Below are positions 7,691 through 48,035 of a DNA stretch of 64,000 nucleotides, piece after piece; position 1 is the first letter of the stretch, and each line of letters opens with the position of its first letter. The position numbers were made by a program, and so were the translations under genes. Under the pieces are notes generated by a model. That model saw only the letters and a list, made by a program, of their open reading frames with translations. It was not told the origin of the DNA and did no database searches. The DNA lies in the NCBI RefSeq assembly GCF_029338295.1, contig NZ_CP119793.1, positions 186,001-250,000 of the forward strand. Reading direction: 5' to 3'. This DNA is from Haladaptatus sp. QDMS2 (GTDB lineage: Archaea; Halobacteriota; Halobacteria; Halobacteriales; Halococcaceae).

Positions 7691-8332
7691 ATGGTTGACC
7701 AACCACCAATAAAATCGACTGAAAAGGATGAGTTCGACACTACTGATGAACAACTCGATTTCAGACCTTCAAAATCACAAGAGCTGGACCATTCTCCAGA
7801 CGCGTTTACCGTAGGCTATGATCCAACTGGCAGTACCCGCGTGGGAAGTGGTCGTTCGAAGGGACGGACGCTTCGACTAATTCGCCTAAACGAAGGCCGT
7901 CATCACGCAGATGGAAGGCATAGTATTCGTGAAGCAGCACGAGATAAAAAACGGATTATTCAGTCGTTTTGCTCAATTCTGGAAGTTACTCCGCACCAGC
8001 AACGTGAAGCGGTCGCAATCATTGGTCGACTCAATCTGGATAGATTCGGTCAACAAAAACGCCTCGAAAAAGTCGCCCTTGGAATTATTAGATTTGTCGT
8101 TGATAGTGACCGGGAACGTCACTTTTTCGAGGGGCAGGACCCCACAAAACTCAACTTCCGCAATGTAGACCTGTCTCGTTTCCCTCCTAAGTTCGCTGAG
8201 AATCCTCAGTACCGTGCACTCTGTAAGCAGTACAATCTCTCTGGAAAGGACCAGTATAGTATTTCCCAACTAATAAAACGAGAACTCAAACGTACTGGAT
8301 ATTTTTCTCGCGCCAGGTCAGGGCGACGTTGA
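7691..8332 (+). CDS. Hypothetical haloarchaeal protein, possible cyclin-box-like domain
   Basis: 213 aa. The first 75 residues are acidic and low complexity. Residues about 85-150 (IIQSFCSILEVTPHQQREAV, then IIGRLNLDRFGQQKRLEKVA) form a run of amphipathic helices that loosely recalls cyclin-like repeats of TFB-type factors, but no zinc ribbon is present. The C-terminus is basic (RELKRTGYFSRARSGRR), consistent with nucleic-acid binding. A leaderless TATA promoter precedes it. No family was recognised, so the function is left open. Confidence 0.6.
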   Translation: MVDQPPIKSTEKDEFDTTDEQLDFRPSKSQELDHSPDAFTVGYDPTGSTRVGSGRSKGRTLRLIRLNEGRHHADGRHSIREAARDKKRIIQSFCSILEVTPHQQREAVAIIGRLNLDRFGQQKRLEKVALGIIRFVVDSDRERHFFEGQDPTKLNFRNVDLSRFPPKFAENPQYRALCKQYNLSGKDQYSISQLIKRELKRTGYFSRARSGRR

Positions 8333-12683: not shown

Positions 12684-12687
12684 GCGA

Positions 12688-14571: not shown

Positions 14572-17500
14572 CAGTGGCCACCTTCTTTGAACGACTCCAC
14601 GACGACGGTGGAGTACCGGTTCGGAATGATGTCGATTTGTTGGTCGATATCCCGGAGGCTATTCATCGGCCCGTGCTCGTCCTCGGCGTCACCCGTCACC
14701 ACATTCGCGATGAACTCCTCGCGGGGATCCTTCCCCAGGGGATCTTCGACCAGCCGGTCCCACACTTTATCGAACTGATCTTTGATGCGCTCACGGTAGA
14801 GGTTTATCCCGTGAACGTCCGACCACTCTTGTTCCTGTTCCTCCGTAACCGAGTAGGCCCGCTTGATAAACTCGAGGGCGTCCTCGCTGGTGATAAGGTC
14901 ACGGTCTAGGGCTTCGTTGTACCCCTGGAATTGGTAGAGCGACTTCTCGGTCTGCCCTTCGAACTCGTGATGGTAGTACTGGAGGAACAGCCCGACTATG
15001 AGTCCGGGCATTGTCCGGTCGATAGCGAATTGGGCCCATCGCTCGAGCGGAGTCGCCTCGACGAGTAGGTCCTGGTAGCGGTGGTAATGTTCGAACTTTG
15101 TGTAATGCGAGCGATCTCGAGCGCGAATCGCGTCGAAGAGGACGAACACTGTCCCAGGATACCTTCGACCGACGCGTGAGTACGCCTGGATGTACTCGGC
15201 AGTGTTCCGAGGCATCCCGAAGAAGGAGATGAAGTTCAGCTTGTCGATGTCTACACCGTGTGAAATCATCGACGTCGCGATGACGATATCGATAGGCCGA
15301 TCGGGATTGTCAGATTCCAACCGCGCTAGCGCGTCGCGGACCACGTCCATGTCTGTCTCTCCCGTAAGGGGGACCGATTTGAGTTCGTGATAGGGCTCGC
15401 CGTACGCCTTCAGCTGCTCGTTGAGCATCTGGTTGACGTTACGCTGCAACATATCACTCTTCGTCTTCGCGATGTTGTAGTTGACCTGTACCTCATACAT
15501 TCCGAGCAATTTTTGGTAGATGTCCTTGCGCTCAGCCACGTCCGTGGGCAGGTCGAGTGGACCACCGAGTTGTGATTCCGGAATCTCCGCGAGCGCAGCA
15601 TCCAGTCCGTCAAGGTCATCAGATTCCAAATCTCCCTGGAGTTCCTGGACGAGCATTGCCCGTTCGCGGATGATGGAGTTGATGGCCAAGGTTCGCGAGA
15701 TGGTCCGAGGTATCGCCCCAACCATTCGACGCCCGAGTTGATATGGATCTTCGTACGCATAGAAGGACTGCCGCAGCCGCGGCCCCTGTGTCGGGAAGAC
15801 GTTCGTGTCCCGCCAATAGAGCGCGTTTACCTGTGACGAAGCTCCCTTGATGGTCGCGGTCGCCGCCACGATTTTCATCTGCCACCGGCCGTCAGTGTAG
15901 CGGTTCACCAACTCTTGGATGAACGTCTCGTAATGAGAATCGAACGCACCAAATTCCTCCCGGAGCAGGTGCAGCTCGTCTTGGATGAGTATGGATGGCG
16001 GATCTACAGGCTCTACCGGAGTCAAATCGGCGCTGTCGCATCGGAGCTTTTTCGGGTAGGAGTTGTCGGCCATGAAGCACTCCTCCTCGCTGGTGAGGCC
16101 GTGCTTCTGGCAGCGATGCTTGACGCGACCGAAGAGCGTCCGCATCCTGCGCTGCCAGCCGACGATGGCGATTTTGTCGATGGTGCTCACCACGAACGTG
16201 GGAGCGTGACGGTAGACCTCCTCGTCGGTGATGTAGATGGGTAGCTCTGCTGTCTTACCACCCTGGTGTTGCACCTCTGGGCACTCAGGGTTCTCGCACT
16301 GATGGATGATTCGCATTCGCTCCAAGTCGCCCGTGACCGAGACCGTCTCGTCAGCGTCGCAGTACGGACAGTCCTGGACCATCAGCCACTCCTGTTGCTT
16401 GTCAGGGTCGTCCCTTGCCTCCTTGACGTAGTTCGTGTCGCCTCCACGATCGCTCATCGAGTAGGTCTTGTTCGGCGTGTTGTTCCGACCGACAAAGTAG
16501 CCGACACTGAACGATTCACCTGCCATCGCCGAATCGTCCCGGCGGATAGTTTCGGCCATGCAGAGGACGTCGGCGATGCGCTGGAGTTGTTGCAACGAGA
16601 GCAGGCGCAGTGGGAACTTCGTGAGCGCGGTCATCCCGAACTCCTTCCCCCGGAGGCGGTCGTAAAACGCCGCGAAGACAACCAATCCAAGGTATGCTTC
16701 GGTCTTCCCACCACCAGTCGGGAAGTAGATGACGTCACCGACATTGAGCGCATCAACGATATCCCGCTCTGGGTCTGCTTGCGCGACGATATCCGGGAGC
16801 GTCATGACGATGAAGACGATTTGGAAGAGCCGCCATTGCACGTAATCTTCACCCATCTCGGTGAAAGTCTCGTTCAGCGCGCGGAACGCCTTCTCAACCT
16901 GTGGGTCGTTCGCGATGAGTTCACGCCCCTGATGGAACCGCTCTCGTTCGGCAGCAAAGTCCCTGAGCGTCTTCTGGTACTCCTTCTGTGCCGCCGACGT
17001 TTTGCCAACCAGTATGTCATCTTCGAGATTTTCGTACTGCTCGTAGGCCGAGTCCATTTCAGCTTCGATGTTCGCGAGGACGCCATCAATGTCCCCATGT
17101 GCCAATTCGCTGAAGGGCGCGTCAACGGTCTCTCGGGAGTGATACTTCGGCTGCTCATATACAGGGACAGTGGTCGTCTGAAGACCGGTGACCGGATTCT
17201 TGCTCATACGCTCGACCGCGCAGTTCTCACCGATGGCGTAAATGTTCCCGTCGTACTGGTAGTGATCTCGAATCTCCTCGGATGGGAAGGATTTGAACAA
17301 TGGCGACCCGGCCTCGACCCCGAGAGTGACATCGAAGAGGTAGGACTGCCAATCCTCGTCGGGTTCCTCTGAGTTTGGATAGTCTTCACCGAAGCCGTTG
17401 ACGAGCGAGACCGAGACGGCTATTCGTCCGTCGTCACGCTGGCTGGCGGTGATTCGGAGGTACGCCGTCCACTCGACGGGTTTGGGCGTCTCGGAGAACA

Positions 17501-18278
17501 CCTCCTCGAGATGTGCCTCGAACGATGGTTCGTCGGTAAGGCTCTCCGCTGGAACAGAGTCGGCCTCCCAGCGTTCGACACCATCTGTGGATTCGCAATA
17601 GACCCGCTCGGCTCCGTGGTACGCCTCTCGCGCCGCCTGTAACTGATTGGTTATATCGTAGTGTAGCCGTCGGTCGCGTTTGGCGGCGTCACGAATCTCC
17701 GCCCCAGGGACAGAGATTGGTTCAATGGACGGCGATAGCCGCTCGAACACCCTCAGGAGGTTTTGTTCATCGTAGGTGGCGGTCCCTCCATCTGCGTGGA
17801 CCTCCCGGTCCTCGTTCGTCACCGCGAGTTCGCCATAGGAAGCCTCCTCCAATTCCCCGTATCGGAGTTGCTCCTCGTATTTAGGATAACGACGGTAGAA
17901 GAGCTTTAGATTGGGTTGGAACTCGAACTCTGCGTCGTCGAGCTCGTCGGAATCGACCTGGAACGTCAGCCCAAGCGAGAACGGTGCGACATCTTGGCCG
18001 AAGTTCTGGAAGCTATCGTCCTCTGCTTGCGCCTTCCGGAAGCGATACTGACTCGCAACAACGCCGGCGAAACATCGACGACTCGGTGTGTTCCCGTAAA
18101 GCGTCTGTTGCTCTGGTCCTCGTCCCGTAATCCGGTCGATTAACCGTCCTGTAATGACATGGTCCATCGCCTGATGGCGACGGTACTTGGTATCCCCCTC
18201 TGTATCGAACGCCTCTTCGGGTGGTCGGGTGTACTCTGGATCGTTCCGAGGTGGAATTGAATCGAAACGTGGTTTCAT
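14571..18278 (-). CDS. drmA: DISARM helicase DrmA
   Basis: 1235 aa superfamily 2 helicase, the DNA-engaging core of DISARM. Motifs seen: Walker A FPTGGGKTEAYLG (about 518-530), motif II QDELHLL (about 763-769), motif III AATATIKG, and the C-terminal RecA lobe with IATSMISHGVDIDK and AYSRVGRRYPGTV (about 1010-1040). A CPYCDAD...CENPEC insert between lobes suggests a zinc site. The first 450 residues are a large family-specific region. The gene lies 82 bp downstream of the drmE-like gene and overlaps drmB by one base. Its length and motif set fit DrmA, and it is the most secure DISARM marker here. Confidence 0.92.
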   Translation of the reverse strand: MKPRFDSIPPRNDPEYTRPPEEAFDTEGDTKYRRHQAMDHVITGRLIDRITGRGPEQQTLYGNTPSRRCFAGVVASQYRFRKAQAEDDSFQNFGQDVAPFSLGLTFQVDSDELDDAEFEFQPNLKLFYRRYPKYEEQLRYGELEEASYGELAVTNEDREVHADGGTATYDEQNLLRVFERLSPSIEPISVPGAEIRDAAKRDRRLHYDITNQLQAAREAYHGAERVYCESTDGVERWEADSVPAESLTDEPSFEAHLEEVFSETPKPVEWTAYLRITASQRDDGRIAVSVSLVNGFGEDYPNSEEPDEDWQSYLFDVTLGVEAGSPLFKSFPSEEIRDHYQYDGNIYAIGENCAVERMSKNPVTGLQTTTVPVYEQPKYHSRETVDAPFSELAHGDIDGVLANIEAEMDSAYEQYENLEDDILVGKTSAAQKEYQKTLRDFAAERERFHQGRELIANDPQVEKAFRALNETFTEMGEDYVQWRLFQIVFIVMTLPDIVAQADPERDIVDALNVGDVIYFPTGGGKTEAYLGLVVFAAFYDRLRGKEFGMTALTKFPLRLLSLQQLQRIADVLCMAETIRRDDSAMAGESFSVGYFVGRNNTPNKTYSMSDRGGDTNYVKEARDDPDKQQEWLMVQDCPYCDADETVSVTGDLERMRIIHQCENPECPEVQHQGGKTAELPIYITDEEVYRHAPTFVVSTIDKIAIVGWQRRMRTLFGRVKHRCQKHGLTSEEECFMADNSYPKKLRCDSADLTPVEPVDPPSILIQDELHLLREEFGAFDSHYETFIQELVNRYTDGRWQMKIVAATATIKGASSQVNALYWRDTNVFPTQGPRLRQSFYAYEDPYQLGRRMVGAIPRTISRTLAINSIIRERAMLVQELQGDLESDDLDGLDAALAEIPESQLGGPLDLPTDVAERKDIYQKLLGMYEVQVNYNIAKTKSDMLQRNVNQMLNEQLKAYGEPYHELKSVPLTGETDMDVVRDALARLESDNPDRPIDIVIATSMISHGVDIDKLNFISFFGMPRNTAEYIQAYSRVGRRYPGTVFVLFDAIRARDRSHYTKFEHYHRYQDLLVEATPLERWAQFAIDRTMPGLIVGLFLQYYHHEFEGQTEKSLYQFQGYNEALDRDLITSEDALEFIKRAYSVTEEQEQEWSDVHGINLYRERIKDQFDKVWDRLVEDPLGKDPREEFIANVVTGDAEDEHGPMNSLRDIDQQIDIIPNRYSTVVVESFKEGGH

Positions 18279-18360
18279 ATAAGGAATTTGTCTGTTGCTG
18301 TAATAAGATTACCGTCGAATAACTTCATCCTCTACCGATTTCATCTCTGGAACATAATCG

Positions 18361-21300
18361 TCAGTTCTCGGTAACGTCGATGACCGCTTTGACGACATAG
18401 CTGGTCGAATGTTGGAGAATCATTTCACAGTCGTCACCTCCTTCGGTGAGCGTCTTCGCGACGTGCTCTCTGATTTCACTCCCTTGATGAATATGTGCAC
18501 CGCGAATCTTCCTAAGTCCAGCGTCGATGAGATTGCCGTTCGAGCCCTTCAATGCGGGCTTATCGAACGCCTTGCCGATGAGTTGGATATCCTCGACGGC
18601 CCGGGGCCCCATCGTCAAACTCGGGTCTCGAGCCAGCTCGAGAGCGTCGTTGGCGATGGCGACGCTCTCGAACCAATCGCGAACCCTGACCGAACTACGA
18701 TCGATACCGACACTTCTCGCTTCCCCGATTATGTAGTGGTAGACGACGGTCTCGGTGGGTTCATCGGCGCCGACCTCCTCCTGAATCTCCGTCAGTATCT
18801 CAGAGATTGTATCGTACCACGTCCGCAACTGGTCGGTCACCCTACCGCCTTCTATATCCGCGTAACGCTCATCGAGCCATTCGTCCCAGAGCTTGTTCCA
18901 ATACCATGAATCAATCTCGAGGATAGTCGTCCCTTTGGAGAGCTCGGCTGGCGAACGCCACCCGTACTCTGTCTCGACATCTTGCCAGTGAGCGATACGC
19001 TCCTCGACGAGCAACCTCGTCCCAGATTCCCGGTGGAGCGTCTCGCCATCCTCGGTCTCGATATCGAAGTCCTGGTGGACGTAATCGTCGTACCGACTGG
19101 TGTCGTGGTCGAACTCGCGACCGAAGCGAGAGTTATCAAGGTGCTCAGAGAGACGGTCCTCGAGCGAATCAGCTTCTTCCGCCACCCGTGAACCTGACTC
19201 TTCCTCTACCCGTCCTTCGAATCCATCCGTATCTGCATCTTCCGTGGCCTCCTCACCTTCGGACCGATTAGAGACGGAAATCTCCGGATATGGTAACAAC
19301 GCGGAATCGGTCACCTGGAAGGCAGCGTTGATTCGGTCGATGAACTGGTGGAGGCGGTTTTGGAGGTTCTTTTTATACCGACCTTCGTAGGTCAATATCG
19401 TCACATGCTCTGCGTTCGGATGCACGAGACACCCAATGTGCTGTTTACGCTGCGGCCCGGCGATGAGCAATTCATTGCACCGGTCGATGTCGCGAACTGA
19501 TTCGCGGTCGGTCACCTGGACCTTGTTTCCAAGAGTGTGTCGGAACAGTGCCTTGTCCTCGAGAAGGCGTTCCATGAGAGTATGACGCCACGCCGGTGTA
19601 GGCGTGAAAATCCCGAGCGAACGATGTTCGGTGACGGCAGCTTCGACACGGTCGCGGATTGCATCGTAGAGTTCGTTCCGTTCATCAAGTGCTAGGAGGA
19701 GGCGCTCCAATTGCTCGTGGACGTCCGATGCGCCGGCACGAGTCATCATATCTGCGTTCGAAACGAAGGAACCGAACTCGTCGACGAACTCACCCATCGT
19801 CCAGGATTGTCGACCTCGTTTCCCCCGTCGACGTTTGTCCAGGACCCACCTATCGTAGTAATCCGCGGGGACAGGCAAGCGCTCGAATCGCTTCAGGTAC
19901 GAATATGACTTCCACCCACCGAGCTCAGCGCCGTTCTCGACGAGGAACATCGCCGCTTCATTAGCATCTTCGAACATCGGTATCAGCCGTTTCGCATCGA
20001 TTGCGTCAATCCGAATTTCTTTTTCCGTCGCTAGGGCCTCGAGTTCAGCATCGCTCGACAACGGGACCGGTGATTCCGGACGATAGACACCGTCCCCATC
20101 GACTACAGACCGTACCGCTTGGGTTCGGGGAAGCACATCGACCTCCGACAAATCAGGTGGGAAGTACTCTGGAACGCGGTTCTCACCGTGTTCTTGCTTC
20201 GTGTAGATGCTGTAGATAGGACAGACGAGCTGGTCCCTATCGACCTCGTCGACGACTCCCTCTTCTTCTGCTGTGACCCGAGAATGAAAGTTGAAGAGTA
20301 TGGGGCCGCGGTCAGCGATTACCTCGAGTTCAGTGTCTCGCGACACGAGGACGAGGTTGGCGATACCCCCGTCTTCATTGCAGCGGTGTTCGCCGTCGTA
20401 GACGAAACTATGTGGGAATAGCTCCTCGAGCGGCTTGTGCCCCCCATTTGAATCCACACGGAACCGACCCGGAATATCGATGCCATATCGCCTATATTCT
20501 TCTCGAATCTGTTTTTTACCACCCCAATGGGAGGTCGTTCCTTTGGTATAGAGGATGGTATCTTGTCCCTGGAGTGAGCTTTCCAGAAGGACTTCGATGG
20601 CGAGGGGGAGCACGATTTGCGGTTGAAAGCCAGGCCAGAGAATGGGAACCGTCCGACCCTCTTTCGTCGCCTTCCGCAGACCGCTCATCATGGACGCTCC
20701 AAGTTCGCCGACCGAGACAGGCTTCCAGTCGCCTCTTTCTTCGTAGCGGAGCACCTCGAGCGATTCTGCCAACCAACTGTATGCTGGCTGGCCACCAGTT
20801 GACTCGAGTAACGCTTGGAGGTACGATTCCGCATCCTCGGCGATTGCAGCCGCGTAGCGGAGGATGACGACCACGGCCTTGCAGCCGACCTCGTCGGTCT
20901 CGACAGCGAGTTCGGCGACCGGGGCTAGGTTCCCGGACAACAGCGATGGTGCGTGTGTAGAGATGGGCGTGAGGAGCTCGAAAGATTTCTTCTGGACGGT
21001 AGTATCGTCGCTCTCGAGCCACTCCAGTGCCTCGGACATCGCGTTCTTCACAGCGTCGATTCGGGTGTCGGAGCGCAACATGGCGTCGAGGCCGTTGGCC
21101 GCTGCCTGAATTAACTCTGGGCTCGAGTCCGGGGACACGTCAATAGCCTCGACCAACGTGGTTTCTGACAGCTCGCTTCCAGCCTCCGTCGCCAGAATTT
21201 CTACGAACGCATCGACCGCGATATCACCGTTCGGAGATTCGAGTAAATCGAACAGTTCAGTTTCCCATTCAACGACTAACATCGGATGATGCTTGGCCAA

Positions 21301-21795
21301 CAATCGGAGCCCATCGCCAGTACTCGAATCTGATGGCACGTCTTCGGCCAGCAGGTTTTGAATCAGGGTTTCCGTGGCGATTTCGAGACCACGCTGTATC
21401 TCGGCCGCTGCAGCCCCGTATATCTCCTCGTGACGTTCATGAATCGCTTCGATAGCATCGAACCGGCCAGATGCTCCGAGTGCACATGCGACCGGCCCGG
21501 AGTCGCCACATGAATCTGAGTCGAAATAGCGAAGTATCGGATCGAACGCTGAATCCGGCAACGACCTGAACGCCGTAGGGTGATAGCTGGCGAGTTTCGA
21601 AATCGCCTCGATGCTCTTCAGCTTCCACATCGCATGGGTACCGCCCATGAACTCGAGTAGGTCCGGAAGAACCTCCTTTGCGGTCTCCTTCGAGATGGTC
21701 TCGTTCGCAAGGGTTTCTAGGGCATCGTATCGCGGCTGGTACTCATCGGAGCGAAGCGCCTCGATGAGTCGATCTTCCGAGTTGGTCGCACTCAT
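18361..21795 (-). CDS. Large DrmE-like protein with N-terminal HEAT-type repeats, DISARM operon leader
   Basis: 1144 aa. The first about 350 residues are short paired helices (ALETLANETI, VLPDLLEFMG, AVDAFVEILA) typical of HEAT/ARM solenoids. The middle (about 385-800, with TVPILWPGFQPQIVLPLAIE, DTILYTKGTTSHWGG and LVLVSRDTELEVI) has no Walker motif but looks like a folded alpha/beta region. An acidic linker at about 840-880 precedes a C-terminal region with RVRDWFESVAIANDA and LIGKAF. Class 2 DISARM carries drmE, a protein of unknown function, next to drmA. Position and size support that identity, but I could not confirm family membership from sequence alone. It is the first gene of the minus-strand operon drmE-A-B-C-channel. 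Confidence 0.65.
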   Translation of the reverse strand: MSATNSEDRLIEALRSDEYQPRYDALETLANETISKETAKEVLPDLLEFMGGTHAMWKLKSIEAISKLASYHPTAFRSLPDSAFDPILRYFDSDSCGDSGPVACALGASGRFDAIEAIHERHEEIYGAAAAEIQRGLEIATETLIQNLLAEDVPSDSSTGDGLRLLAKHHPMLVVEWETELFDLLESPNGDIAVDAFVEILATEAGSELSETTLVEAIDVSPDSSPELIQAAANGLDAMLRSDTRIDAVKNAMSEALEWLESDDTTVQKKSFELLTPISTHAPSLLSGNLAPVAELAVETDEVGCKAVVVILRYAAAIAEDAESYLQALLESTGGQPAYSWLAESLEVLRYEERGDWKPVSVGELGASMMSGLRKATKEGRTVPILWPGFQPQIVLPLAIEVLLESSLQGQDTILYTKGTTSHWGGKKQIREEYRRYGIDIPGRFRVDSNGGHKPLEELFPHSFVYDGEHRCNEDGGIANLVLVSRDTELEVIADRGPILFNFHSRVTAEEEGVVDEVDRDQLVCPIYSIYTKQEHGENRVPEYFPPDLSEVDVLPRTQAVRSVVDGDGVYRPESPVPLSSDAELEALATEKEIRIDAIDAKRLIPMFEDANEAAMFLVENGAELGGWKSYSYLKRFERLPVPADYYDRWVLDKRRRGKRGRQSWTMGEFVDEFGSFVSNADMMTRAGASDVHEQLERLLLALDERNELYDAIRDRVEAAVTEHRSLGIFTPTPAWRHTLMERLLEDKALFRHTLGNKVQVTDRESVRDIDRCNELLIAGPQRKQHIGCLVHPNAEHVTILTYEGRYKKNLQNRLHQFIDRINAAFQVTDSALLPYPEISVSNRSEGEEATEDADTDGFEGRVEEESGSRVAEEADSLEDRLSEHLDNSRFGREFDHDTSRYDDYVHQDFDIETEDGETLHRESGTRLLVEERIAHWQDVETEYGWRSPAELSKGTTILEIDSWYWNKLWDEWLDERYADIEGGRVTDQLRTWYDTISEILTEIQEEVGADEPTETVVYHYIIGEARSVGIDRSSVRVRDWFESVAIANDALELARDPSLTMGPRAVEDIQLIGKAFDKPALKGSNGNLIDAGLRKIRGAHIHQGSEIREHVAKTLTEGGDDCEMILQHSTSYVVKAVIDVTEN

Positions 21796-21902
21796 TCGAA
21801 AATCCCTACTTCAACTTGGTACTCGGTATCCCCCAACATCTTATCTGGTATTCAGTGGTCAAGTTAGTTAATTGTTAGGGGGCTGTCTATTTCTACCGGG
21901 CG

Positions 21903-21935
21903 GGTCCCCATCGAAATAATCGTCATACGGGGACC
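21903..21935. repeat. Inverted repeat upstream of the DISARM operon
   Basis: GGTCCCC (21903-21909) and GGGGACC (21929-21935) are perfect complements separated by 19 nt. They lie about 110-140 bp before the drmE-like start. This could be an operator or the hairpin terminator of the lost gene whose scar follows. Confidence 0.4.
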
Positions 21936-22024
21936 GGGTGGACTTCCTCGTAAGAGTGGTGGCCGTGGAAAAATGAAAATGAACGGTACACCATCAAGGA
22001 TACCGAATCGAGGTATTTGACCAA

Positions 22025-22153
22025 GGTCCAATTGGACGTGACGCTTCTGTCGAGGAAATCGATGCAGGTTCAGATGCACACCTCGGTCACACGTTCAGGA
22101 ATCTCGTATCGAATGAACTTGACAACGCCGTTGAAGGTGCAAGAGTGAAATAA
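22025..22153 (+). pseudogene. Fragment of the N-terminus of a MutH/Sau3AI-like endonuclease
   Basis: The plus-strand frame reads GPIGRDASVEEIDAGSDAHL and then a weaker stretch ending in ARVK before TAA. The start matches GPIGRDASYEEIVAASDALL of the intact nuclease at 51025-51876 almost residue for residue. No Met precedes it, and the catalytic D...ExK segment is missing. It is therefore a 42-codon relic of a third member of this nuclease family. Confidence 0.75.
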
Positions 22154-22177
22154 TCGTAATGAGCCCCTCGAGATTAT

Positions 22178-22243
22178 GCTACTCTCGACCTCCTCCTCAA
22201 CTCACAGCCAGGAGAGAACGTCGTGCCTGCGAATACGGACTAA
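22178..22243 (+). pseudogene. Fragment of the C-terminus of a C5-cytosine methylase
   Basis: The frame ending at the TAA at 22241-22243 reads DLLLNSQPGENVVPANTD. The intact C5 methylase at 53378-55243 ends RLLIDSQTGENAVSASTD, 11 of 18 residues identical without gaps. DNA similarity seems to continue past both stops (tgagtgcacctca versus tgagtacatctca). The rest of the methylase has been deleted. Together with the nuclease fragment just upstream it marks a lost restriction-modification or DISARM methylase locus. Confidence 0.75.
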
Positions 22244-22437
22244 TCGGAAACGAAAGCCACCGGTGAGTGCACCTCACCGCTCCGTTTTATTTACCTCCTC
22301 AGCAATGTGAACAGAATTCTATTACGGAGCAACCGAACTATACTATTGTGAAAGTCACCGACAACACTCAATGATTATCATATTCAATACTTGAGCAGAA
22401 AAACGATATTACCGCAAACTGAGGTCAATGAATCTGA

Positions 22438-23910
22438 TTAGTTTCGATTCGATAATGAATCGATACAGTCTCGTAGAAACTGATATTCCGAGAAGAGCTG
22501 GTTTGCCCCGCGAACAGGGTCAGTCAAGGTAGATCCATCACTCATCGTGTGAATAATCGGGTTGTAGTGTGCCACAGAATTTCGAAGATGAACCAAATCA
22601 CTGAGCTCAATTTCATACCCTCGAATATCACGCTTAATCTCGGTTTGCAAATCATTGCTCTCTACAAGTTGTACGAGCTGATCAAGCCGTCCACATGCAA
22701 GCTTATCAGGGTATAGAGACCTATCACCGCGATAGCGAATCGAAACATTTTGATCATCTTCCCAATTCGGGAGGTGCTCTCTGATTAAGCTGCGTAAACC
22801 GATTTCGAATTCTGAAAACAAGTCAAACAGATGGAGATAGACTGGTAAGCTGTTGAGATCGAATCGTGTGACGATACCTTCAATATCTTCATTCGAGCCA
22901 ACGAAGCGAAATCGTTCCTGACTTAATTCGTCGATAACTTCTCTTATCGATGCGGTCGGTTGTAGAAGATTGTGCGAAAAGAGTGGTTCAACGATATCAC
23001 CAATCGTTACGCCGTCGTCGATGCGGGTCCCTTCTCGTGAGATATACCCTTGAAGACCGGTTCGTGTAGCTGCGTTTTCGAAGACGAGAGCAGCATCGAA
23101 ATCATGACATATCATATCGAGGAAGACATCGGCAATCCGTTGGTCAACCTCGTACCCGTATGGATTCAGGGTCATCATCGATGTAATGTCCAGTTTGGGG
23201 TTCGACTCATCCAATCGCCCCATCAGATTTCGCTCTTGTTCTGATGGGTTGTAACGATGCAATCTATTTCCATCAGATGTAGTCAGTTCATTCGAGATGA
23301 CTGTTAGCAGTCTCGGAGATTCATGCAAATGGGCCTCAAGATTGATTTCTTCTATCGCTTCGGTCCGATAATAGAGGAGCTTTCGAAGAGGGGCAGCAGA
23401 TTCATTCGTTTTGAGTTCGTTTGAAGTCAACACTACCGCCCGACCAGACTCGCTTAATCGACGGAGTATTTGCTCGATGTACAGGAAATCTGAATCGACT
23501 GGTGAAGCATCCTCATCGGTTATCAGTGCGGAGTTTATCGCATAATCTCGCCGTGTTTCCTTATCTAGGTCGTCCCAAGGGATATGAGTTGGTGAACAGA
23601 TGATATAGTCAAAATCCAATTCAAGATTGACTCCTCCACGGAAAAAATCATCTTCAATTATCTCTATGTTGTTTTTATTCCGGTAACTGTCACATATTTC
23701 ACTTAGCTGACCTTCATCTTGCCCGAAAACGTATCCATTCGGCACACTCCATGACGCGTTCTCTTCACAGAGACGGTCTACTGTATCGATGAGTGTGCCA
23801 TCTGTACATCCGAGATAGAGAATATTATCGAATTTTGTTGGGTAGGTTCCTCTGAAGAGATATTGGACCATCGCCTCCGCAATGGAATCTGGAATCGGTT
23901 CGTCAATCAC
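22438..23910 (-). CDS. Predicted degenerate methylase - CBS pair - HEPN RNase fusion
   Basis: 490 aa with three parts. Residues 1-230 look like a Rossmann methylase: LYLGCTDGTL (31-40) in place of motif I, IIEDDFF, then IICSPTHIPW (103-112) where N6-methylases have NPPY, so catalysis is probably lost. Residues about 265-357 read as a tandem CBS module (ALVFENAATRTGLQGYIS, SIREVIDELS, EGIVTRFDL), a fold that binds adenine nucleotides. Residues about 358-487 are helical and contain LRNSVAHYN with R443-x4-H448, the HEPN RNase motif. An abortive-infection role, with CBS sensing a nucleotide and HEPN cutting RNA, is inferred. It stands alone on minus between the DISARM and AddAB blocks. Confidence 0.65.
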   Translation of the reverse strand: MIDEPIPDSIAEAMVQYLFRGTYPTKFDNILYLGCTDGTLIDTVDRLCEENASWSVPNGYVFGQDEGQLSEICDSYRNKNNIEIIEDDFFRGGVNLELDFDYIICSPTHIPWDDLDKETRRDYAINSALITDEDASPVDSDFLYIEQILRRLSESGRAVVLTSNELKTNESAAPLRKLLYYRTEAIEEINLEAHLHESPRLLTVISNELTTSDGNRLHRYNPSEQERNLMGRLDESNPKLDITSMMTLNPYGYEVDQRIADVFLDMICHDFDAALVFENAATRTGLQGYISREGTRIDDGVTIGDIVEPLFSHNLLQPTASIREVIDELSQERFRFVGSNEDIEGIVTRFDLNSLPVYLHLFDLFSEFEIGLRSLIREHLPNWEDDQNVSIRYRGDRSLYPDKLACGRLDQLVQLVESNDLQTEIKRDIRGYEIELSDLVHLRNSVAHYNPIIHTMSDGSTLTDPVRGANQLFSEYQFLRDCIDSLSNRN

Positions 23911-24205
23911 ATGAACAATTTCAACAATCTACCATATCAATACCCTCCCCATAGACTCAAGATATGCTGTCTATGACGTAGTCACTAAATTGACCGGGAC
24001 ACCCTATCCGAAGCGGACATCATCATTCAGAATGTCGGGTAAAGGTGAATCCCAGTAGAGCGAAGAATTGTATATACAAGGCTGTTTCAAGTCCTATTCG
24101 AAGTTCATTCCGAGCCATATCAATGACTGGTGAACGTGGATAAGCTAATCAAGGTTCCATGTCCGTACGATGTCAACTCCAATTCGAAATTCCATCTCAG
24201 AGGGT

Positions 24206-27200
24206 TTACCTTGCCCCAAAATAGTCCATGGACTCTGCAACACAATCCTCGATACGATTCTCAAGTTGGTTCGCGAGTTTATCGAGTTCTTTTGAATCAT
24301 ATTGTTGCGTCCAATAGTCCTCTACCGAAGTGAAGAACAGCGTCGTCCGAACTCCCCGTGTCAAATCCGCCTGGTGTAGGGCGACGGCGTACGCCTCCAA
24401 CTGATTCTGATATCTAGTCACTGCAGATTCGATATGATCTTGTGGGACGTCTCCCGTTTTGTAGTCGATGATGTGAAACTCATCATCCGTGACGAGCAAC
24501 TGGTCGATGAGTCCTCTTACTTCTCCATGTTTGAACTCTGCGGTCACGATTGTCTCTGCATGTGAGGAGGCTTCCGATTCGATTCGAGATTCGAGGAACC
24601 GCAATGCCCGTCTCGTGTGCATCTCGATGAGTTCCATATCCAACGCATCCACGGACACGTCTGGCTCGGCAGCGATGAATCCTTCCGCGATGGTCTTCCA
24701 CTGCTCCGCAGGGGCCCGAAGTTCACAGAGTTTGTGTACGATATCTCCGAGTAGGGTCGCGGGTAATTCAGACTCCGGTCTCTCCGAGCCGCCTTCAGCA
24801 GGCTCGTGGACCAATATCACCCGATTTTGAAGTTCATCGTAGACGAGTTCTCCCTTCCGTGCGAAGAGCGCCTTGAGACCTGAAGGAGTGAACCTATACC
24901 GTGAATTTGCAGACATCGGAATCGACCGTTCGATGGTGGTAGTTGGGTTCGATGATTGCAGCTTCGGTTGCCAATCGACCGCCTGTTCTGGTAACCGTAC
25001 GGTGTAGGTTCCGTTTCCGAGCGAGCCGGTCGCACTTCCGGTTGATTCGAGCTCATCGACGATTTCTGGGTCGAGCAGTGCATCCTGTACCCAATCGCGC
25101 CACGAGGTGGCCGCTTCTGGATTTGGTGCTCGGATGGCTGAAAGCCCGCTCGTAGACACGTCGGCTGACGATTCTATGGCATGGGTGCCAGAGAGGATGA
25201 GGTGGTCCCGGGCCCGTGTACAGGCGACGTAGAGGATACGTTTCTCTTCGGCGCGCTCTTCCAGTTCTCGCTGTCGTTTGATGCTGATTCGTGAGACTGT
25301 ATCCGTCTCGTGGAACGCATCATCAGATTTCGGGGCTTTCATCCCGACAGCAGGACCGCTAGGCAAGGTTTCGAATTCTAGTTTCCCATCGGCGATGGAA
25401 CCCCTGTTCATGAACTTTCGCGAAACTCCAGGGACGGCGACGACCGGGAATTCTTCGCCTTTCGCATCGTGTATGGTGAGGATGCGGACTCCCTCTGCAT
25501 CTTCGGGGATGGTTGCTTCACCCTCACGACGGGCATTTTCGACCCGTCGCTCGAGTCGCATAACCAACGTCGCAAGGCTGGTGATGTCGGTCGCGTTTCG
25601 AAGTTGATTTCGCAACTTCTCTACGTTGGCAACCGCTTGACGAGACCGTTCACCTGCACTAATGCTGACGAGGAAACTCGTTTCGTCGATAATACTGGTG
25701 AGGAGTTCACTCCAGGATTCGGTAGCGGGCGAGGTCGTTGTCACTCCTGCCGCAGCTCGCCATTCGTTGATTCGTCTCACGATTGCACCGATTTCTGGGT
25801 CGGATGCTCTTCGGAGTGAGTCCCAGAGGGGGGTTGAGCCGGTCGAGCGGTCGTCCCCGAGGAGTGCGGCTATCTTCTCATCTGGTAACCCGAACACAGG
25901 GGATCTGAGAGTCGCGTACAAGGCCCGTTCGTTCTCTGGAGAGACGAGCGTTCGGAAGAGATTGATGAGTGCTTCTATCTCAGGGGTTTCATAGAAGCCG
26001 ATTCCCGAAGCGACTGTGTACGGAATCCCAGCGACGGAGAGTGCTCGCTCGTACGTCTTCAGGTGCGTTCGACTCCGAATGAGAACCGCGACATCGGTCG
26101 GTTCGACCGGGCGTGTCTCGAGTTCGTTCGCTTCGCTTCCTTCACCTCGTACACGGTTCAACACTGCCTGCCGTCCATCTTGTTCCTCATCGACGGTCTC
26201 AGATTCGTATACCAACGTCTCCTCTGCGAACAGCCGAGTTAGCCGTGCTGCGAGTGCCTCTGCTTCGAGTTCTGCCCCATGTGAGACTTGCGTTGCATCG
26301 ATTGGTGCGTTCTCCTCGTAGAGGTTCTCGATGAGCTCTTCGTTCGTCGGGACGCAGAGGTACTCTACGGAGGCGTCGATGTCCTCAGGGTTATTTCGAG
26401 CTGGTTCGAGGGGTTGTGGACGCGCCTCGAAGGGAGCTGCCGTATCGGCCACGAAGATTCGATTGAACAGGGCGTTCAGGAAGTACAGGACGTTCGGAAG
26501 CGTCCGGAAATTCAAGGATAGCTGCTCACCGTTCTCGAGAGCATCCGAAAACTCCTCACCTTCGCCAGCATCCGTCGTCACTGCGCCCCGATGTTCGTTC
26601 GCCGCTTGGAGCTCCGCCTGTACAGCCCCGAACATCGTCACATCCGCGTTACGGAAGCGATAGATGCTCTGCTTGCTGTCACCCACGACGAAGACGTTGT
26701 CTCCCTCGTAGGACGTAGGATTCGAGGTGGTCAGGTGTTTGATGATATCCCACTGTCGTGGATTCGTATCCTGGAACTCATCGACCATCACGAAGGCGAA
26801 CTGCGACCGTAGCTCGTGCAATGTCTCTTCCGATGCATGGTCCTCGAGGAAGGTGTAGGCGAACTCGATTTGATCTGTGTAGTCGACGAGGTTCTGACGG
26901 CGTTTCTCAGCTGCGTACCGGTCACCGACCACGATGAGGACTTTAGCCAGTGCAGTTAGATACCGAAAGCTCCGCGCATCGGACTCAATGTTCACGTCCA
27001 CTAGGAGTGCCGGTGGGTTGAGCCACTCCCACAACGTTTCCATCGCCTCAGCGACCGATTGTTGTTCGGCTTCGTATCCGTCCCAATTCGAATCGATCCC
27101 GTGATAGTACGCATCTGAATAGCGCTCCCCCTTCGATGTGGTCAGGATATCACAGATTTCGTTCACGCATCTCTGTCGGGCTCGATTGTCAACATCGACA

Positions 27201-28033
27201 TCTTGGTCTCGGATGCCGTACGCTTGGAGTCGCTCGAGAATTGAGGTGAGTTGCTTCCACGCTTTATCCTTCTCACTAATCGGTGGTGATTCGTCGGCGA
27301 GCCGTTCGAACGTCTCAAACGCGTGCGATGGGGGACCCTGGAAGGTCTTGCGTGCGAAGGTGGGACTGATGGGATACAGGTTCTCCCATACGTACTCTGT
27401 GTACTCCTCACGTGTGGCATCCCGCCACCGTTCGGCCCACTCGAGGCTCTCAGGGCGCTTCGTTAACAACGATGAAAGTATCGACTTGAGGTCGCTTCGT
27501 GTGAAACGGCGGGCAAGTGTCCGAATCTCATCGGTACCTTCGAGCGCTTCGATGGACGACGCGACCGTCCGTTCGATGAGTGCGACGGTCTCGTCTTCAT
27601 CGAGCGTCGTGAATCCAGGGGCTATCTCCGGTACGTTGAGTGCGTGTTCGCGTAGTAATCGAGAGCAGAATCCATGGAGAGTGTGAATGTACCCGGATTC
27701 GATATCATCTGCGATTCGCTGCCACCGTGCGAACGATTCCTGGTCGTCGATGGTCTGTAACTCCTGGGATACCTCCGTCCGTATCTTCTCTTTCAGCTCG
27801 CTAGCAGCACGTTCGGTGAAGGTGGTGGTGAGGATGTTCTCGGGGCTGAGTCCTTGAGAGGTGTCATCGAGTCCACCACTATCTTCGAGAACGGTCTCTC
27901 GGAGTAATTCCATATACCGTGCGGTCAGGGTCGTTGTCTTCCCCGTCCCTGCACCGGCCGTCAGTGAGATGTTTCGGTCGTGTGTTCCGGCAGCAATCTG
28001 TTGTTCCTCAGTCAGTCGGTCCCAGTCGACCAT
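24206..28033 (-). CDS. AddA/RecB-like helicase-nuclease (UvrD family with PD-(D/E)XK domain)
   Basis: 1275 aa superfamily 1A helicase: Walker A AGAGTGKT (26-33), motif II VDEFQDT (about 414), GDSKQSIYRFR (motif III), TIHDAKGEEFP (motif V) and YVACTRARDHL (motif VI). The C-terminus holds an intact RecB-type nuclease: GLIDQLL, IIDYKTGD (about 1188) and QNQLEAYAVAL (Q-x3-Y). This is the plan of AddA, which unwinds and trims double-strand ends together with AddB. It starts 2 nt after the upstream addB-like stop, so both are co-translated. AddAB is uncommon in Archaea. Its place between DISARM and BREX suggests degradation of foreign DNA, which is inference. Confidence 0.88.
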   Translation of the reverse strand: MVDWDRLTEEQQIAAGTHDRNISLTAGAGTGKTTTLTARYMELLRETVLEDSGGLDDTSQGLSPENILTTTFTERAASELKEKIRTEVSQELQTIDDQESFARWQRIADDIESGYIHTLHGFCSRLLREHALNVPEIAPGFTTLDEDETVALIERTVASSIEALEGTDEIRTLARRFTRSDLKSILSSLLTKRPESLEWAERWRDATREEYTEYVWENLYPISPTFARKTFQGPPSHAFETFERLADESPPISEKDKAWKQLTSILERLQAYGIRDQDVDVDNRARQRCVNEICDILTTSKGERYSDAYYHGIDSNWDGYEAEQQSVAEAMETLWEWLNPPALLVDVNIESDARSFRYLTALAKVLIVVGDRYAAEKRRQNLVDYTDQIEFAYTFLEDHASEETLHELRSQFAFVMVDEFQDTNPRQWDIIKHLTTSNPTSYEGDNVFVVGDSKQSIYRFRNADVTMFGAVQAELQAANEHRGAVTTDAGEGEEFSDALENGEQLSLNFRTLPNVLYFLNALFNRIFVADTAAPFEARPQPLEPARNNPEDIDASVEYLCVPTNEELIENLYEENAPIDATQVSHGAELEAEALAARLTRLFAEETLVYESETVDEEQDGRQAVLNRVRGEGSEANELETRPVEPTDVAVLIRSRTHLKTYERALSVAGIPYTVASGIGFYETPEIEALINLFRTLVSPENERALYATLRSPVFGLPDEKIAALLGDDRSTGSTPLWDSLRRASDPEIGAIVRRINEWRAAAGVTTTSPATESWSELLTSIIDETSFLVSISAGERSRQAVANVEKLRNQLRNATDITSLATLVMRLERRVENARREGEATIPEDAEGVRILTIHDAKGEEFPVVAVPGVSRKFMNRGSIADGKLEFETLPSGPAVGMKAPKSDDAFHETDTVSRISIKRQRELEERAEEKRILYVACTRARDHLILSGTHAIESSADVSTSGLSAIRAPNPEAATSWRDWVQDALLDPEIVDELESTGSATGSLGNGTYTVRLPEQAVDWQPKLQSSNPTTTIERSIPMSANSRYRFTPSGLKALFARKGELVYDELQNRVILVHEPAEGGSERPESELPATLLGDIVHKLCELRAPAEQWKTIAEGFIAAEPDVSVDALDMELIEMHTRRALRFLESRIESEASSHAETIVTAEFKHGEVRGLIDQLLVTDDEFHIIDYKTGDVPQDHIESAVTRYQNQLEAYAVALHQADLTRGVRTTLFFTSVEDYWTQQYDSKELDKLANQLENRIEDCVAESMDYFGAR

Positions 28034-28035
28034 CT

Positions 28036-31000
28036 TCAGGCACCCCCTTCAGTATCACTTGCTTCATAATGGATTCCTCGGGCCATCTCTGGGATGTACG
28101 AGGGTGATTCGGACGTCTCCAGCTCTTCGATGGTTTCGTGGCGTTGATGCGGTCGAACATCGCAAACAGATTGGTAGGCACAGTACCGACACCCAGCATC
28201 GTTCGGGTCCAGTATCGTCGGGTGGAACGCTCCTTTCTCAATCGCAGCGGTAATTCGTCCGATACGGCTCACGATTTCTTCGTCGATGAACGTCCGGAAT
28301 TCTGCGTGCGTCTCGAACCGAGGATACTTCCAGGCAAGCATCGCTGCTCCGCCCCCTTTTCGCATATGGGCAGTGTGCTCTTTCGAGCCGATTTGACCTT
28401 TATAATGGTTGACCTCCAGTGGGGGTTTGAGTTGGTAATATGACCCTCCAACGGTTGAAATATCAGCGTCGTCTCCTTTCTCGAGGACCGACTCGGCCAT
28501 ATGCGCGTAGAGTGGAAGTTGGAAGCGCAATCCATCCAGGGTCGCGGCCTCGTTAGGCGTATTCCCTGTCTTGTAATCTCTGACGACGAGATGGAGTCCG
28601 TCCTCGTCGCGATAGGTGTCGATTCTGTCGACGGTTCCGGAAATCGGAATCCTTCCGTTCTGGGTCTCGAGTTGGACGGGCTCTTCTTGCAGGACGGTGG
28701 TATCGAACTCACGTCGGCGTCCGAAGCGAGCCTCGAACCAGGTGGGAGTCACGGTCGTATTGGAGAGTAGTTCTTCTTCACGGAGGAACCGACAGAGAAC
28801 GCCGATTTCCGGTTCGTCGGGTCGGCGATTCCCGTAATAGGGATTCGAGGCTTCGTCACCTAGTCCAGCGAAGACCGCTTCGAGCCAGGCTCGTTGGAAC
28901 GGCGTGGGCTCTCGGGTCAACGTCTCATCTAACTCTGCAAGTGCGATTTGGAGTAGTTGGTTCTGCCAGTACTTTGTGTCAGAGATGATTTCGTCGACGG
29001 GCTCTCCGAGGGAGTCCTGCTGTTCGAGGTAGAATCGTTCCACGACCGCGTGCACGAAGCTGCCCTTCTGGAGTGGACTCGCTTCTGCGGTCAGCGAATC
29101 GTCCTCTTCGATTCCAATCACCGTTTTCATGTAGAACTTGAATCCACAGGCCGCGTAGGTTTCGAGGGCGGTCGGACTGTAGGATTCAGAATCGGTCGGA
29201 TGGAACAAGGCTCGACGCGTTTCCTCAGACAAGCGGGCATCGTACCGGGTGAGGCTGGGTTCGCTTCTGGATGCCGCACATGCACCTCCGGCTTGAGCTC
29301 TTTCAGCACGCTCTGCATCGAACGTGCCGACATCGGCCGCGGCCTCGACCCACTCAATGACTTCTTCTGGTCCATTGATGGCGAGTGTGGAAGCAAGGGA
29401 CCGCTGCACGTCCTCTCGACAACCAGTCTCTTTTGGAATCTCGCGAGCGTCGAGTCCACTCACACGATGTATCTCTGCCAGGATGTCGGCTTCGACGAGA
29501 GGGGTCCCATCAAGTTCGTGTGTGGGTGCGGAGAGAGTTACTGAATCAGCCCCTGCCATCAGGGTCGCGACGTGGTACCGGGCACGGAGCTGTGTATCGG
29601 CACGGGCGAAATCCTCATGGGCCTCGTTAATCGGGTACGTAAACGCCAATCGGGTTCGATTCGCTGGGAAGCTTCCAGCGGTAAGCCCAACGATGTACAG
29701 CCGGGAGAATGTTTGAATCCCGACTTCGGACAAGGGTTGGAGGACCACTCGATTCGACGAACGGTCCACGGATAAATCGACGATTTCTGCTTGGAGCGCA
29801 CGATTAAATCGTTCTTCAGTACCGCCATCGATGTCGTCATCGACCATCGGAGCTGTTTCCGCGAGGGTTCGCGCTGCGTGCAAGATTTGAGAGTGCGCTC
29901 TCTCCTCAACGCTCGCCGAGTACGGTCCTCGTGTGTCTTCTAGTGCCGTCGAAATTCCGAGGTATTCGAGGAGTCGTTCAAGCTCCCCAGGAAGCTCGTG
30001 GAGTGATGTGTCACATCTCGCATTCAACTCTTTGAGGAGTGAATCGACGATTCCCTGATGTTCCTCGATTAGATGGTGGTATGCCCGTGCTAATCGGGGT
30101 GAATCGAGGCGTTGGTCAAGATTCGACAGCGCTGCCACCACTCGCTCGGATTCATCACCTGCGACGGACACAAGCGGGTTCGAAAGTAATCGAACGAGCG
30201 AGTCCGTATGTGCTGATGAATCGATGACTTGGAATGCTGTAGAGATGGCGTCTCCAACGCGCGTCTCGAAGACCGGATAGTCGAGCGAACTCGTATACGG
30301 TATCTCGTATTGCTCGAATACCTCCCTCGTGATATCACGATACGACTCAGCGTTCGTGACCACGACGCCGATATCCTTCGGTTCGATACCGTCCGCGATA
30401 TCGGCTTGTATCGACCGAGCGACGCCACGAACCTCTTCAGGTCTGTTCATCGAGGCCATCCGTTCGATATCCGGCACAACTTGTTCCGGTTCGTCGAGTG
30501 CGCTGGTTGTAGTGTAACACTGCCTGACCAGTTCCGCACGCGCATCACCACCCTCATCCAGAGGCGGAACCCACCGCGATTCGAAGCCCATCTCGAGATA
30601 GGCTTCTAAGACTCGGCCGACCGCTCGGTCGACGCCAGGTGCGTTTTCAGAAGAAGGGGAGAGAGATTCCTCATTCATGAGTGGCAGAATCGCTATCGTC
30701 GGCCACGTTTCGACCACACGTTCGATGACCATCCGTTCGAGGGGGGAATAGAGGGTGAATCCACCGATGACGACCACGTCGATTGACGGGCGGAGGGTGG
30801 TGAACGGTTCTTGAGTCTCGACGACACGCCCGTAGCGCTCGCCCCGAATCGATAACGGAGGACCGTCATGATGGGTCGCGTAGTCTGCGCGCATCTTCGA
30901 AAACGAACGTTCGAATTCGGCGGTGACCCTCGCTTGGTAGTCCAACCCGAGCTCGCACAGTCGAGCTTCGATTTCAGACGAGTCCAATAGGTTCGCGAAC

Positions 31001-31386
31001 TCCATGAGCGTCAGCAGCTCGTCGGCTCTATCAGCCAACCCTCGTGTCGGTAGCCCGTCTGGGGTGAGCGGGTTCGCTGGCTTGTCGAGATGTTCGAGCG
31101 CGAGCTCTACGAGCCGATTCCGTGTTGGACTCCGCATGTGCGTGTGGATGGTTTCACCGAAGGCACGTTCATGACAGCTGTGAACGAAGCCATCGATGGT
31201 TTCCACCGACAGTTGGAGTGGACGTCCAACGTCATCCCACCGCTCCTCGATGATGGGAATACGCTCTTGAGTTGGCGTGAGATACAAAACGCTATCGACC
31301 ATCCCCGTGGCTACATCGGTTGCCTCGGTGAGTGCGTGTCGGTCCAGGCGTTCGGCATCTGGACCGGTAAGAAGCAATCGAGACAT
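28036..31386 (-). CDS. AddB-like subunit with Fe-S nuclease domain
   Basis: 1116 aa. The N-terminal two thirds resemble an inactivated UvrD-type helicase: LYLTPTQERIPIIEERW near the start, no GKT Walker motif, and IGVVVTNAESY further on. The C-terminal domain is a RecB-type nuclease: VDRIDTY, VRDYKTGN (about 938), QLPLYAHM. It is wrapped by an Fe-S cluster of the AddB type: one Cys in YAACGFKFY (about 747) and three in CRYCAYQSVC (about 1062-1073). It precedes the addA-like gene with a 2-bp gap. In bacterial AddAB the B subunit supplies the second nuclease and the Chi-reading pseudo-helicase. Whether a Chi-like site is read here is unknown. Confidence 0.85.
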   Translation of the reverse strand: MSRLLLTGPDAERLDRHALTEATDVATGMVDSVLYLTPTQERIPIIEERWDDVGRPLQLSVETIDGFVHSCHERAFGETIHTHMRSPTRNRLVELALEHLDKPANPLTPDGLPTRGLADRADELLTLMEFANLLDSSEIEARLCELGLDYQARVTAEFERSFSKMRADYATHHDGPPLSIRGERYGRVVETQEPFTTLRPSIDVVVIGGFTLYSPLERMVIERVVETWPTIAILPLMNEESLSPSSENAPGVDRAVGRVLEAYLEMGFESRWVPPLDEGGDARAELVRQCYTTTSALDEPEQVVPDIERMASMNRPEEVRGVARSIQADIADGIEPKDIGVVVTNAESYRDITREVFEQYEIPYTSSLDYPVFETRVGDAISTAFQVIDSSAHTDSLVRLLSNPLVSVAGDESERVVAALSNLDQRLDSPRLARAYHHLIEEHQGIVDSLLKELNARCDTSLHELPGELERLLEYLGISTALEDTRGPYSASVEERAHSQILHAARTLAETAPMVDDDIDGGTEERFNRALQAEIVDLSVDRSSNRVVLQPLSEVGIQTFSRLYIVGLTAGSFPANRTRLAFTYPINEAHEDFARADTQLRARYHVATLMAGADSVTLSAPTHELDGTPLVEADILAEIHRVSGLDAREIPKETGCREDVQRSLASTLAINGPEEVIEWVEAAADVGTFDAERAERAQAGGACAASRSEPSLTRYDARLSEETRRALFHPTDSESYSPTALETYAACGFKFYMKTVIGIEEDDSLTAEASPLQKGSFVHAVVERFYLEQQDSLGEPVDEIISDTKYWQNQLLQIALAELDETLTREPTPFQRAWLEAVFAGLGDEASNPYYGNRRPDEPEIGVLCRFLREEELLSNTTVTPTWFEARFGRRREFDTTVLQEEPVQLETQNGRIPISGTVDRIDTYRDEDGLHLVVRDYKTGNTPNEAATLDGLRFQLPLYAHMAESVLEKGDDADISTVGGSYYQLKPPLEVNHYKGQIGSKEHTAHMRKGGGAAMLAWKYPRFETHAEFRTFIDEEIVSRIGRITAAIEKGAFHPTILDPNDAGCRYCAYQSVCDVRPHQRHETIEELETSESPSYIPEMARGIHYEASDTEGGA

Positions 31387-31648: not shown

Positions 31649-32497
31649 TCAAAAATCGTTAAATGTTTTCTGTCTATTGGTTCCTGTGAATTCTTTCGAG
31701 GATTGTAAGTTCGATATTTCCCATAGTTCGTCTAGTTGGATACCCGAGGCACCACCTCGCTTGCAAGGAGGGAGTCCGGTTGATTCATGTAACACCTCTA
31801 ACATCGCCCCAGACTTAATAGTCCAGCCACGTCTCTCTGCATATTCGTTGAATGGATGATTTCCCGGTGCAACGAGGGCACTCCGCGATGAATTCTCGGG
31901 GTTTTCCTTGTCGAATCCACCTCCATGTTTCGGACACGTACCCAGAAACTCGGTATGTCGCTCGCTGGGTGACTCTCTTTGCTGTACTTTCTCCTGGATT
32001 GTTTTGAAGTCTGCTTGAATTTGCTTTGAACGCTCTTCAGATGGTTCCCAGATATTGTGCCAAATGATAGGGAAGTTCGCGCGGTTCTCCCCTTGTAGGT
32101 GAAGATACCAGATGATGAGCAATCGCTGTAGTTTCTTCTCCAAGGCGGGGACCTCTGTCCAATGGTCGGCTTTCACGATGTCTCCATAGTCGACCATACT
32201 AAGGACCAGACGTTCCTTCGGGCGGACTAGTTTTCCCCCTCCAGTTGTCTTCAGTGGTGTGACCTTAAGTTCGATTCCTGCTTGTTCAAAATCGGGAGCT
32301 TGGTCACTGTTAATCTGGATTCCGAAGTAATCCTCCTCAATAAGATTCGCAACAGCCATTTTCGAGCGGTGTCGTTCTGAGTTGGCACGACCGTGGATTG
32401 ACTCGCTAATTTCCTGAAGGGTTTTTCCGAGCAGGGCATCTGACGCTGCTTTTATCTCGTCCTCATTTGCATTCCTTCCGAGAGCCGGGTTAACCAT
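31649..32497 (-). CDS. MutH/Sau3AI-family restriction endonuclease, copy 1
   Basis: 282 aa. The catalytic signature of the MutH/Sau3AI fold is intact: an upstream Glu (NLIEEDY, about 54-55), then D69 in APDF, E76 and K78 in GIELK, so D-x6-E-x-K. These enzymes cut GATC-type sites, nick or double strand, depending on modification. The sequence continues with LVLSMVDYGDIV and a TCPKH motif also found in copy 2. It lies 171 bp downstream of pglZ on the same strand but has its own upstream gap. It is a paralogue of 51025-51876 on the other side of BREX. The recognition site is inferred only from the family. Confidence 0.82.
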   Translation of the reverse strand: MVNPALGRNANEDEIKAASDALLGKTLQEISESIHGRANSERHRSKMAVANLIEEDYFGIQINSDQAPDFEQAGIELKVTPLKTTGGGKLVRPKERLVLSMVDYGDIVKADHWTEVPALEKKLQRLLIIWYLHLQGENRANFPIIWHNIWEPSEERSKQIQADFKTIQEKVQQRESPSERHTEFLGTCPKHGGGFDKENPENSSRSALVAPGNHPFNEYAERRGWTIKSGAMLEVLHESTGLPPCKRGGASGIQLDELWEISNLQSSKEFTGTNRQKTFNDF

Positions 32498-48029: not shown

Positions 48030-48035
48030 CCCTTC

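Follow-up and report, generated by a model that had tools for sequence, protein, structure and literature searches.

The window analysed here, a 64,000-nt part of a 331-kb contig, comes from a haloarchaeal genome. At 22438–23910 on the minus strand it carries a gene for a protein of 490 aa, with a GTG start at 23910 and the stop codon included at 22438, at exactly the coordinates given in the initial annotation. The protein joins a degenerate N6-adenine methylase-like domain, a CBS pair and a HEPN domain in a single chain. The gene stands alone, 295 bp from the upstream AddA-like gene and 642 bp from the downstream DrmE-like gene, and GC content dips to 0.45 at this point versus ~0.56. Small open reading frames in the downstream gap (21796–22437) looked non-coding, an Rfam search of 18000–25000 returned no match and a search for a second copy of the fused gene in the same genome found none.

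The fused gene is located in a defence island, beside DISARM. On its downstream side, the minus strand encodes the DrmE-like protein (18361–21795; NCBIfam DrmE_fam, 3.2e-11), the DISARM helicase DrmA (14571–18278; PADLOC DrmA, 1,225 bits), DrmB (12688–14571; PADLOC DrmB, 1.4e-171) and the PLD nuclease DrmC (11781–12722; PADLOC DrmC, 8.5e-54). On its other side lies an AddA-like UvrD/PD-(D/E)XK gene paired with an AddB-like gene (24206–28033 and 28036–31386, minus strand). The island also holds MutH-like nucleases, cytosine methylases and a BREX-like set (32668–50939) of PglZ, BrxC, BrxB, a second BrxC and BrxA, followed by PglX and BrxHII encoded on the opposite strand. Two MutH-family endonuclease genes (31649–32497 and 51025–51936) flank the BREX set, the latter adjoining two cytosine methylases. 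Directly downstream of drmC, the gene at 9781–11784 (minus strand) encodes a pentapeptide-repeat protein whose C-terminal part weakly resembles an ion channel; the protein matches the Hailong effector HalA, its relatives also adjoin DISARM in G156 and G101, and it is possibly a DISARM-linked membrane effector.

Residues 1–215 of the fused protein (23266–23910, minus strand) are homologous to Rossmann methylases of the TaqI/BseCI/Eco57I type. The N-terminal parts of the fused family matched free haloarchaeal TaqI/BseCI-type methylases at E = 8e-46 (hhalign, profile–profile), and a joint profile of this clade matched the structures of M.BseCI (7e-33) and M.TaqI (1e-11). A match of the fused protein to Mad2/MADS (8.6e-6) was set aside as a generic methylase match. 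The free relatives are 450–460-aa proteins of haloarchaeal restriction–modification systems with Pfam Eco57I, N6_Mtase and TaqI_C domains, and share ~30–33% identity with the fused protein over residues 5–190. They contain NPPY, the motif X ‘TP’, the GRFDLY stretch and a target-recognition domain, whereas the fused domain is devoid of all four, its methylase core running directly into the CBS pair. Motif IV had been read as changed to SPTH, which we located at residues 106–109 and which departs from the catalytic (N/D/S)PP(Y/F/W) pattern. Across the seven fused proteins this motif is SPTH (the window protein), HPPQ, DPPK, NPPS, YPPT, NPPT or DPPV; the aromatic residue is thus gone in 7/7, but kept in 15/15 free methylases, all of which have NPPY.

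The S-adenosylmethionine (SAM) motifs have decayed less evenly. Motif I (LGCTDG in the window protein) has been lost in three members, with GCTDG in the window protein, GYNPQ in Halorubellus salinus and VCPDG in G276, and in the same three the acidic motif-II residue is replaced by G, A and T, respectively. A glycine-rich motif I is present in G156 (GCGDGE), the Natrinema plasmid and G049 (both GCGKGE) and G074 (GVGHGE), and these four members keep the acidic residue. Because the motif-IV aromatic, the motif X ‘TP’, GRFDLY and the target-recognition domain have all been lost, the methylase domain looks dead across the whole fused family, and SAM binding is plausible for only some members. The initial annotation took the inactive methylase for a modification or DNA sensor, which would be a tentative role; with its SAM motifs eroded and no target-recognition domain, the window protein is unlikely to recognise specific DNA in the way that methylases usually do.

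The tandem CBS module, initially placed at residues 265–357, proved somewhat wider, at about 240–357 (22840–23193, minus strand). The window protein alone gave a weak Pfam CBS match (residues 316–352; 17.9 bits, below the Pfam cut-off). CBS repeats were clear in relatives (14/16 members, best Pfam match 8.5e-12), and a profile of the segment retrieved CBS proteins from the PDB at 3.6e-10, identifying it as a tandem CBS pair. The second repeat carries G345-x-x-T348-x-x-D351, a signature through which nucleotide-binding CBS pairs usually contact the ribose-phosphate; the fused family alignment shows no change at G345, T348 or R349.

The HEPN domain occupies residues 355–490 (22438–22848, minus strand), with E369 and R373 in its first helix and the R-x4-H motif R443-N-S-V-A-H448. 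All four of these residues are invariant in the fused family, and R-x4-H, which fits the HEPN pattern R-x4-6-H, is invariant in all fused and all free-standing CBS–HEPN relatives. Pfam HEPN matches among 16 members were weak (RiboL-PSP in 12, Swt1 in 4 and Abi_2 in 3), and a HEPN-only profile recovered no HEPN structure from PDB sequences. AlphaFold models were poor because only two sequences were usable in the alignment: the full-length model (pLDDT 40, two sequences in the alignment) was discarded, and that of residues 240–490 has low confidence (pLDDT 49, pTM 0.53, shallow alignment). Foldseek against the PDB gave no match under 0.001 for this weak model. In VIA, its 13 best matches all belonged to the HEPN superfamily (Z 4.0–5.7; first unrelated row, Z 3.6) and included AF_0298, Csm6, HepT and MtlR, the last of which is counted as HEPN (PMC3710099). 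These VIA matches to a weak model support a HEPN fold, short of proof, and the domain can be described as an intact-looking, putative RNA-cutting domain. Profile comparisons segment by segment (8e-46, 6e-23 and 5e-21) had null cross-controls. The part-by-part HMM searches proposed in the initial annotation, together with conservation, back its parsing into an inactive methylase, a CBS gauge and a HEPN effector.

Next, we compared the fused protein with known systems. Fusions of HEPN and CBS domains were reported in 2013 (PMC3710099), and DS-11, a one-protein CBS–HEPN anti-phage system, was validated in E. coli in 2026 (Science; PMC13092281); mutants of its CBS Tyr157 and of its HEPN site each lose defence (PMC13092281). 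The initial statement that no described system has this make-up is therefore correct for the three-part combination only. Literature searches found no description of a methylase–CBS–HEPN protein and no methylase domain is described for DS-11, and the methylase head appears to be a new feature. Like DS-11, the window protein combines in a single chain a CBS pair and, after it, HEPN with the catalytic motif. Its residues 244–463 align to positions 79–299 of the NCBIfam profile NF053863 (DS11_antiphage; E 6.3e-7), with a score of 28.8 bits against a curated cut-off of 260 bits, and the profile is matched by 14/16 relatives. The CBS pair contributes the larger share of this DS-11 signal, because HEPN domains alone gave no DS-11 match in NCBIfam and aligned only weakly with DS-11-like HEPN as profiles (41% hhalign probability, E 2.9e-4). 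Only DS11 profile matches reaching past position 280 were considered, and a class-wide count of the DS11 family was discarded because ordinary CBS proteins swamp it (13/14 control genomes match). By sequence, the fused protein is like DS-11 in design and is not a DS-11 equivalog. Csm6-type CARF–HEPN proteins, VIA neighbours of the weak model at Z 4.6–5.3, likewise place a nucleotide-sensing domain upstream of HEPN, but have CARF in place of CBS and belong to CRISPR type III signalling.

The three-part order was found in G000, H. salinus (G239), G156, G276, G049, G074 and a plasmid of Natrinema thermotolerans; with a further copy in G111 that is divided between two contigs, the family has seven full-length members and one split member. 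Among 391 halobacterial genomes, 7 carry the fused form (one of them the split copy), ~40 a free CBS–HEPN and ~20 a free methylase; the Natrinema plasmid is one more member beyond this set. Family-wide searches in two of the families yielded no further fused form, and a scan of viral contigs revealed no relative of CBS–HEPN or the fused protein and one weak methylase-like match. Mean identity among the fused proteins is 38% for HEPN, 36% for CBS and 30% for the methylase domain, which is decayed family-wide, and the HEPN site shows no variation. As the fused proteins lie on one side of a well supported branch in the trees of either half, the phylogeny is compatible with a single fusion event.

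Free haloarchaeal CBS–HEPN proteins, annotated ‘CBS domain-containing protein’ (for example, Halar_0124), have ~25–30% identity to the fused protein over residues 244–488 and the same motifs, but no N-terminal methylase. They differ also in their surroundings. A divergent gene of ~110–127 aa lies beside 13/13 free CBS–HEPN loci examined (HMM E ≤ 2e-20) and is absent at 8/8 fused loci. It was found at L012:1003–1332, L033:7416–7772 and L034:7374–7745 (all minus strand), at L044:8558–8917 (plus strand) and at nine further free loci, and a Pfam search with it returned no known family. This conserved partner is a candidate antitoxin or regulator. Its presence at every free locus and absence from every fused one suggest that the partner may regulate free CBS–HEPN and that the methylase-derived head may have taken over this role in the fused form. 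Separately, a DS-11-like CBS–HEPN of 194 aa with a shortened CBS (L064:3827–4411, plus strand) lies ~3 kb upstream of the G216 DISARM genes.

The neighbourhoods of the fused gene vary. In G000, G156 and H. salinus it directly adjoins the DrmE-like gene, and these are the only three genomes with a DrmE-like protein of ≥37% identity (co-occurrence by chance, p = 2.8e-4). It is missing from the DISARM loci with a more distant DrmE-like protein (G101, G037 and G216), and the DrmA neighbourhood of G141 also has no adjoining copy. Elsewhere its neighbours are AddAB-like and pAgo genes in G074, a helicase in G049 and, in G276, ordinary genes for transport and metabolism, and no DISARM genes were detected within ~10 kb of the fused loci with long flanks (G276, G049, G074 and Natrinema/G111). 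Given its absence from distant DISARM loci and these other locations, the fused gene is not a conserved member of the core DISARM set. In G074, the AddAB-like pair again adjoins the fused gene, and a prokaryotic Argonaute (L040:99–2111, plus strand) stands beside them.

On balance, we consider that the fused protein is probably a single-polypeptide abortive-infection effector, a nucleotide-gated RNase of the DS-11-like CBS–HEPN kind in which a non-catalytic methylase fold serves as restraint or trigger. The C-terminal HEPN domain, as a dimer, would act as a metal-independent RNase whose RNA cutting stops the cell or the virus. The CBS pair would hold HEPN off, or release it, in response to an adenine nucleotide that infection alters in amount or in kind. 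The N-domain, formerly a TaqI-type adenine methylase, would no longer methylate and would instead provide input or restraint without catalysis, standing in for the small partner that is encoded divergently beside free haloarchaeal CBS–HEPN. On infection, the CBS-gated RNase would then arrest growth. This reading is suggested by the invariance of R443 and H448 alongside the loss of methylase motif IV and retention of the CBS G-T-x-x-D signature, and by the alignment of the DS-11 profile over both CBS and HEPN, the two parts in which DS-11 needs Tyr157 and its active site. It is also consistent with the HEPN proteins neighbouring the model, among them the nucleotide-gated Csm6, with the partner swap, with trees compatible with one fusion, and with the co-occurrence with DrmE-like genes in an island of DISARM and BREX. 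The weak HEPN-only match to DS-11, the poor models and at least one fused copy among ordinary genes (G276) argue against it.

A possible but rather doubtful alternative is that the protein guards DISARM in the manner of PrrC, a HEPN RNase kept in check by the restriction–modification complex PrrI and released from it by T4 Stp (PMC3710099), the best-known pair of this kind. The dead methylase would dock where an active one would otherwise sit on the DNA-restriction complex, and a virus that disables this complex would set HEPN free. Consistent with this, the fused gene adjoins drmE-like/drmA in 3/3 genomes with a close DrmE-like protein, and none of the DISARM genes at 9781–21795 was recognised as a drmM-type methylase. 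However, the more distant DISARM loci and the four long-flanked fused loci named above separate the two, and the orientation of the fused gene towards DISARM is codirectional in the window but divergent in G156 and G239. The anticodon nucleases PrrC and RloC likewise have a HEPN RNase held by another part, in the same protein or a complex, that monitors DNA restriction or damage; unlike the fused protein, they use an ABC-ATPase head and have neither CBS nor methylase.

Three further explanations fit less well. It is improbable that the N-domain is a non-catalytic gauge that binds SAM or S-adenosylhomocysteine and signals to CBS–HEPN when a virus depletes SAM: the glycine-rich motif I and motif-II acid of G156, the Natrinema plasmid, G049 and G074 would allow it, but both motifs are gone from the window protein, H. 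salinus and G276, which excludes it as a function shared by the whole family. We regard as very improbable a regulatory RNA-binding protein or housekeeping nuclease that only travels in the island; the G276 copy would suit it, whereas the invariant putative catalytic R-x4-H, the patchy distribution (7/391 genomes) and the several copies beside DISARM, pAgo/AddAB or helicase genes speak for a role in defence. That the protein is a working methylase of an unusual kind, carrying its own RNase, is scarcely credible, as the prolines retained in DPPK, NPPS, NPPT and DPPV are outweighed by the aromatic missing in 7/7, the loss of the target-recognition domain and motif X ‘TP’, and a window copy without motifs I and II.

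The reading of the fused protein as a DS-11-like effector bears on how CBS–HEPN RNases are controlled. DS-11 established phage defence by CBS–HEPN and left its trigger and ligand open; the free and fused haloarchaeal forms offer a natural comparison set, and swapping heads between them, partner gene for dead methylase, would be a direct way to probe this control. A more specific scenario, which we think unlikely, is that a methylase became, by one fusion and loss of catalysis, the non-catalytic switch of a nucleotide-gated RNase, replacing the partner protein and guarding DISARM. If true, it would be a restriction-system guard built from a dead restriction-system subunit. The 2013 survey stated that HEPN domains of restriction–modification systems fuse to nucleases and helicases, not methylases, while a table therein mentions occasional DUF86–methylase fusions (PMC3710099); the fused protein is an exception to that statement, with a methylase that looks dead.

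Last, several genes recur around these loci. In G156 (L036:10441–11085, plus strand) and H. salinus (L035:9928–10572, minus strand), the fused gene is followed directly by a HhH-GPD glycosylase/nicking-enzyme gene, which is also found close to other DISARM loci that have cytosine methylases. Relatives of three window genes (3634–4443, the DUF262/GmrSD-like 5571–7376 and 7691–8332) also surround the fused gene in G049 (L038:529–15740). Finally, of the 15 free TaqI-like methylases, at least 5 have as neighbour a ~280-aa gene that is not assigned to a family (L046:6301–7125 and L047:7446–8321) and possibly encodes their cognate restriction enzyme.
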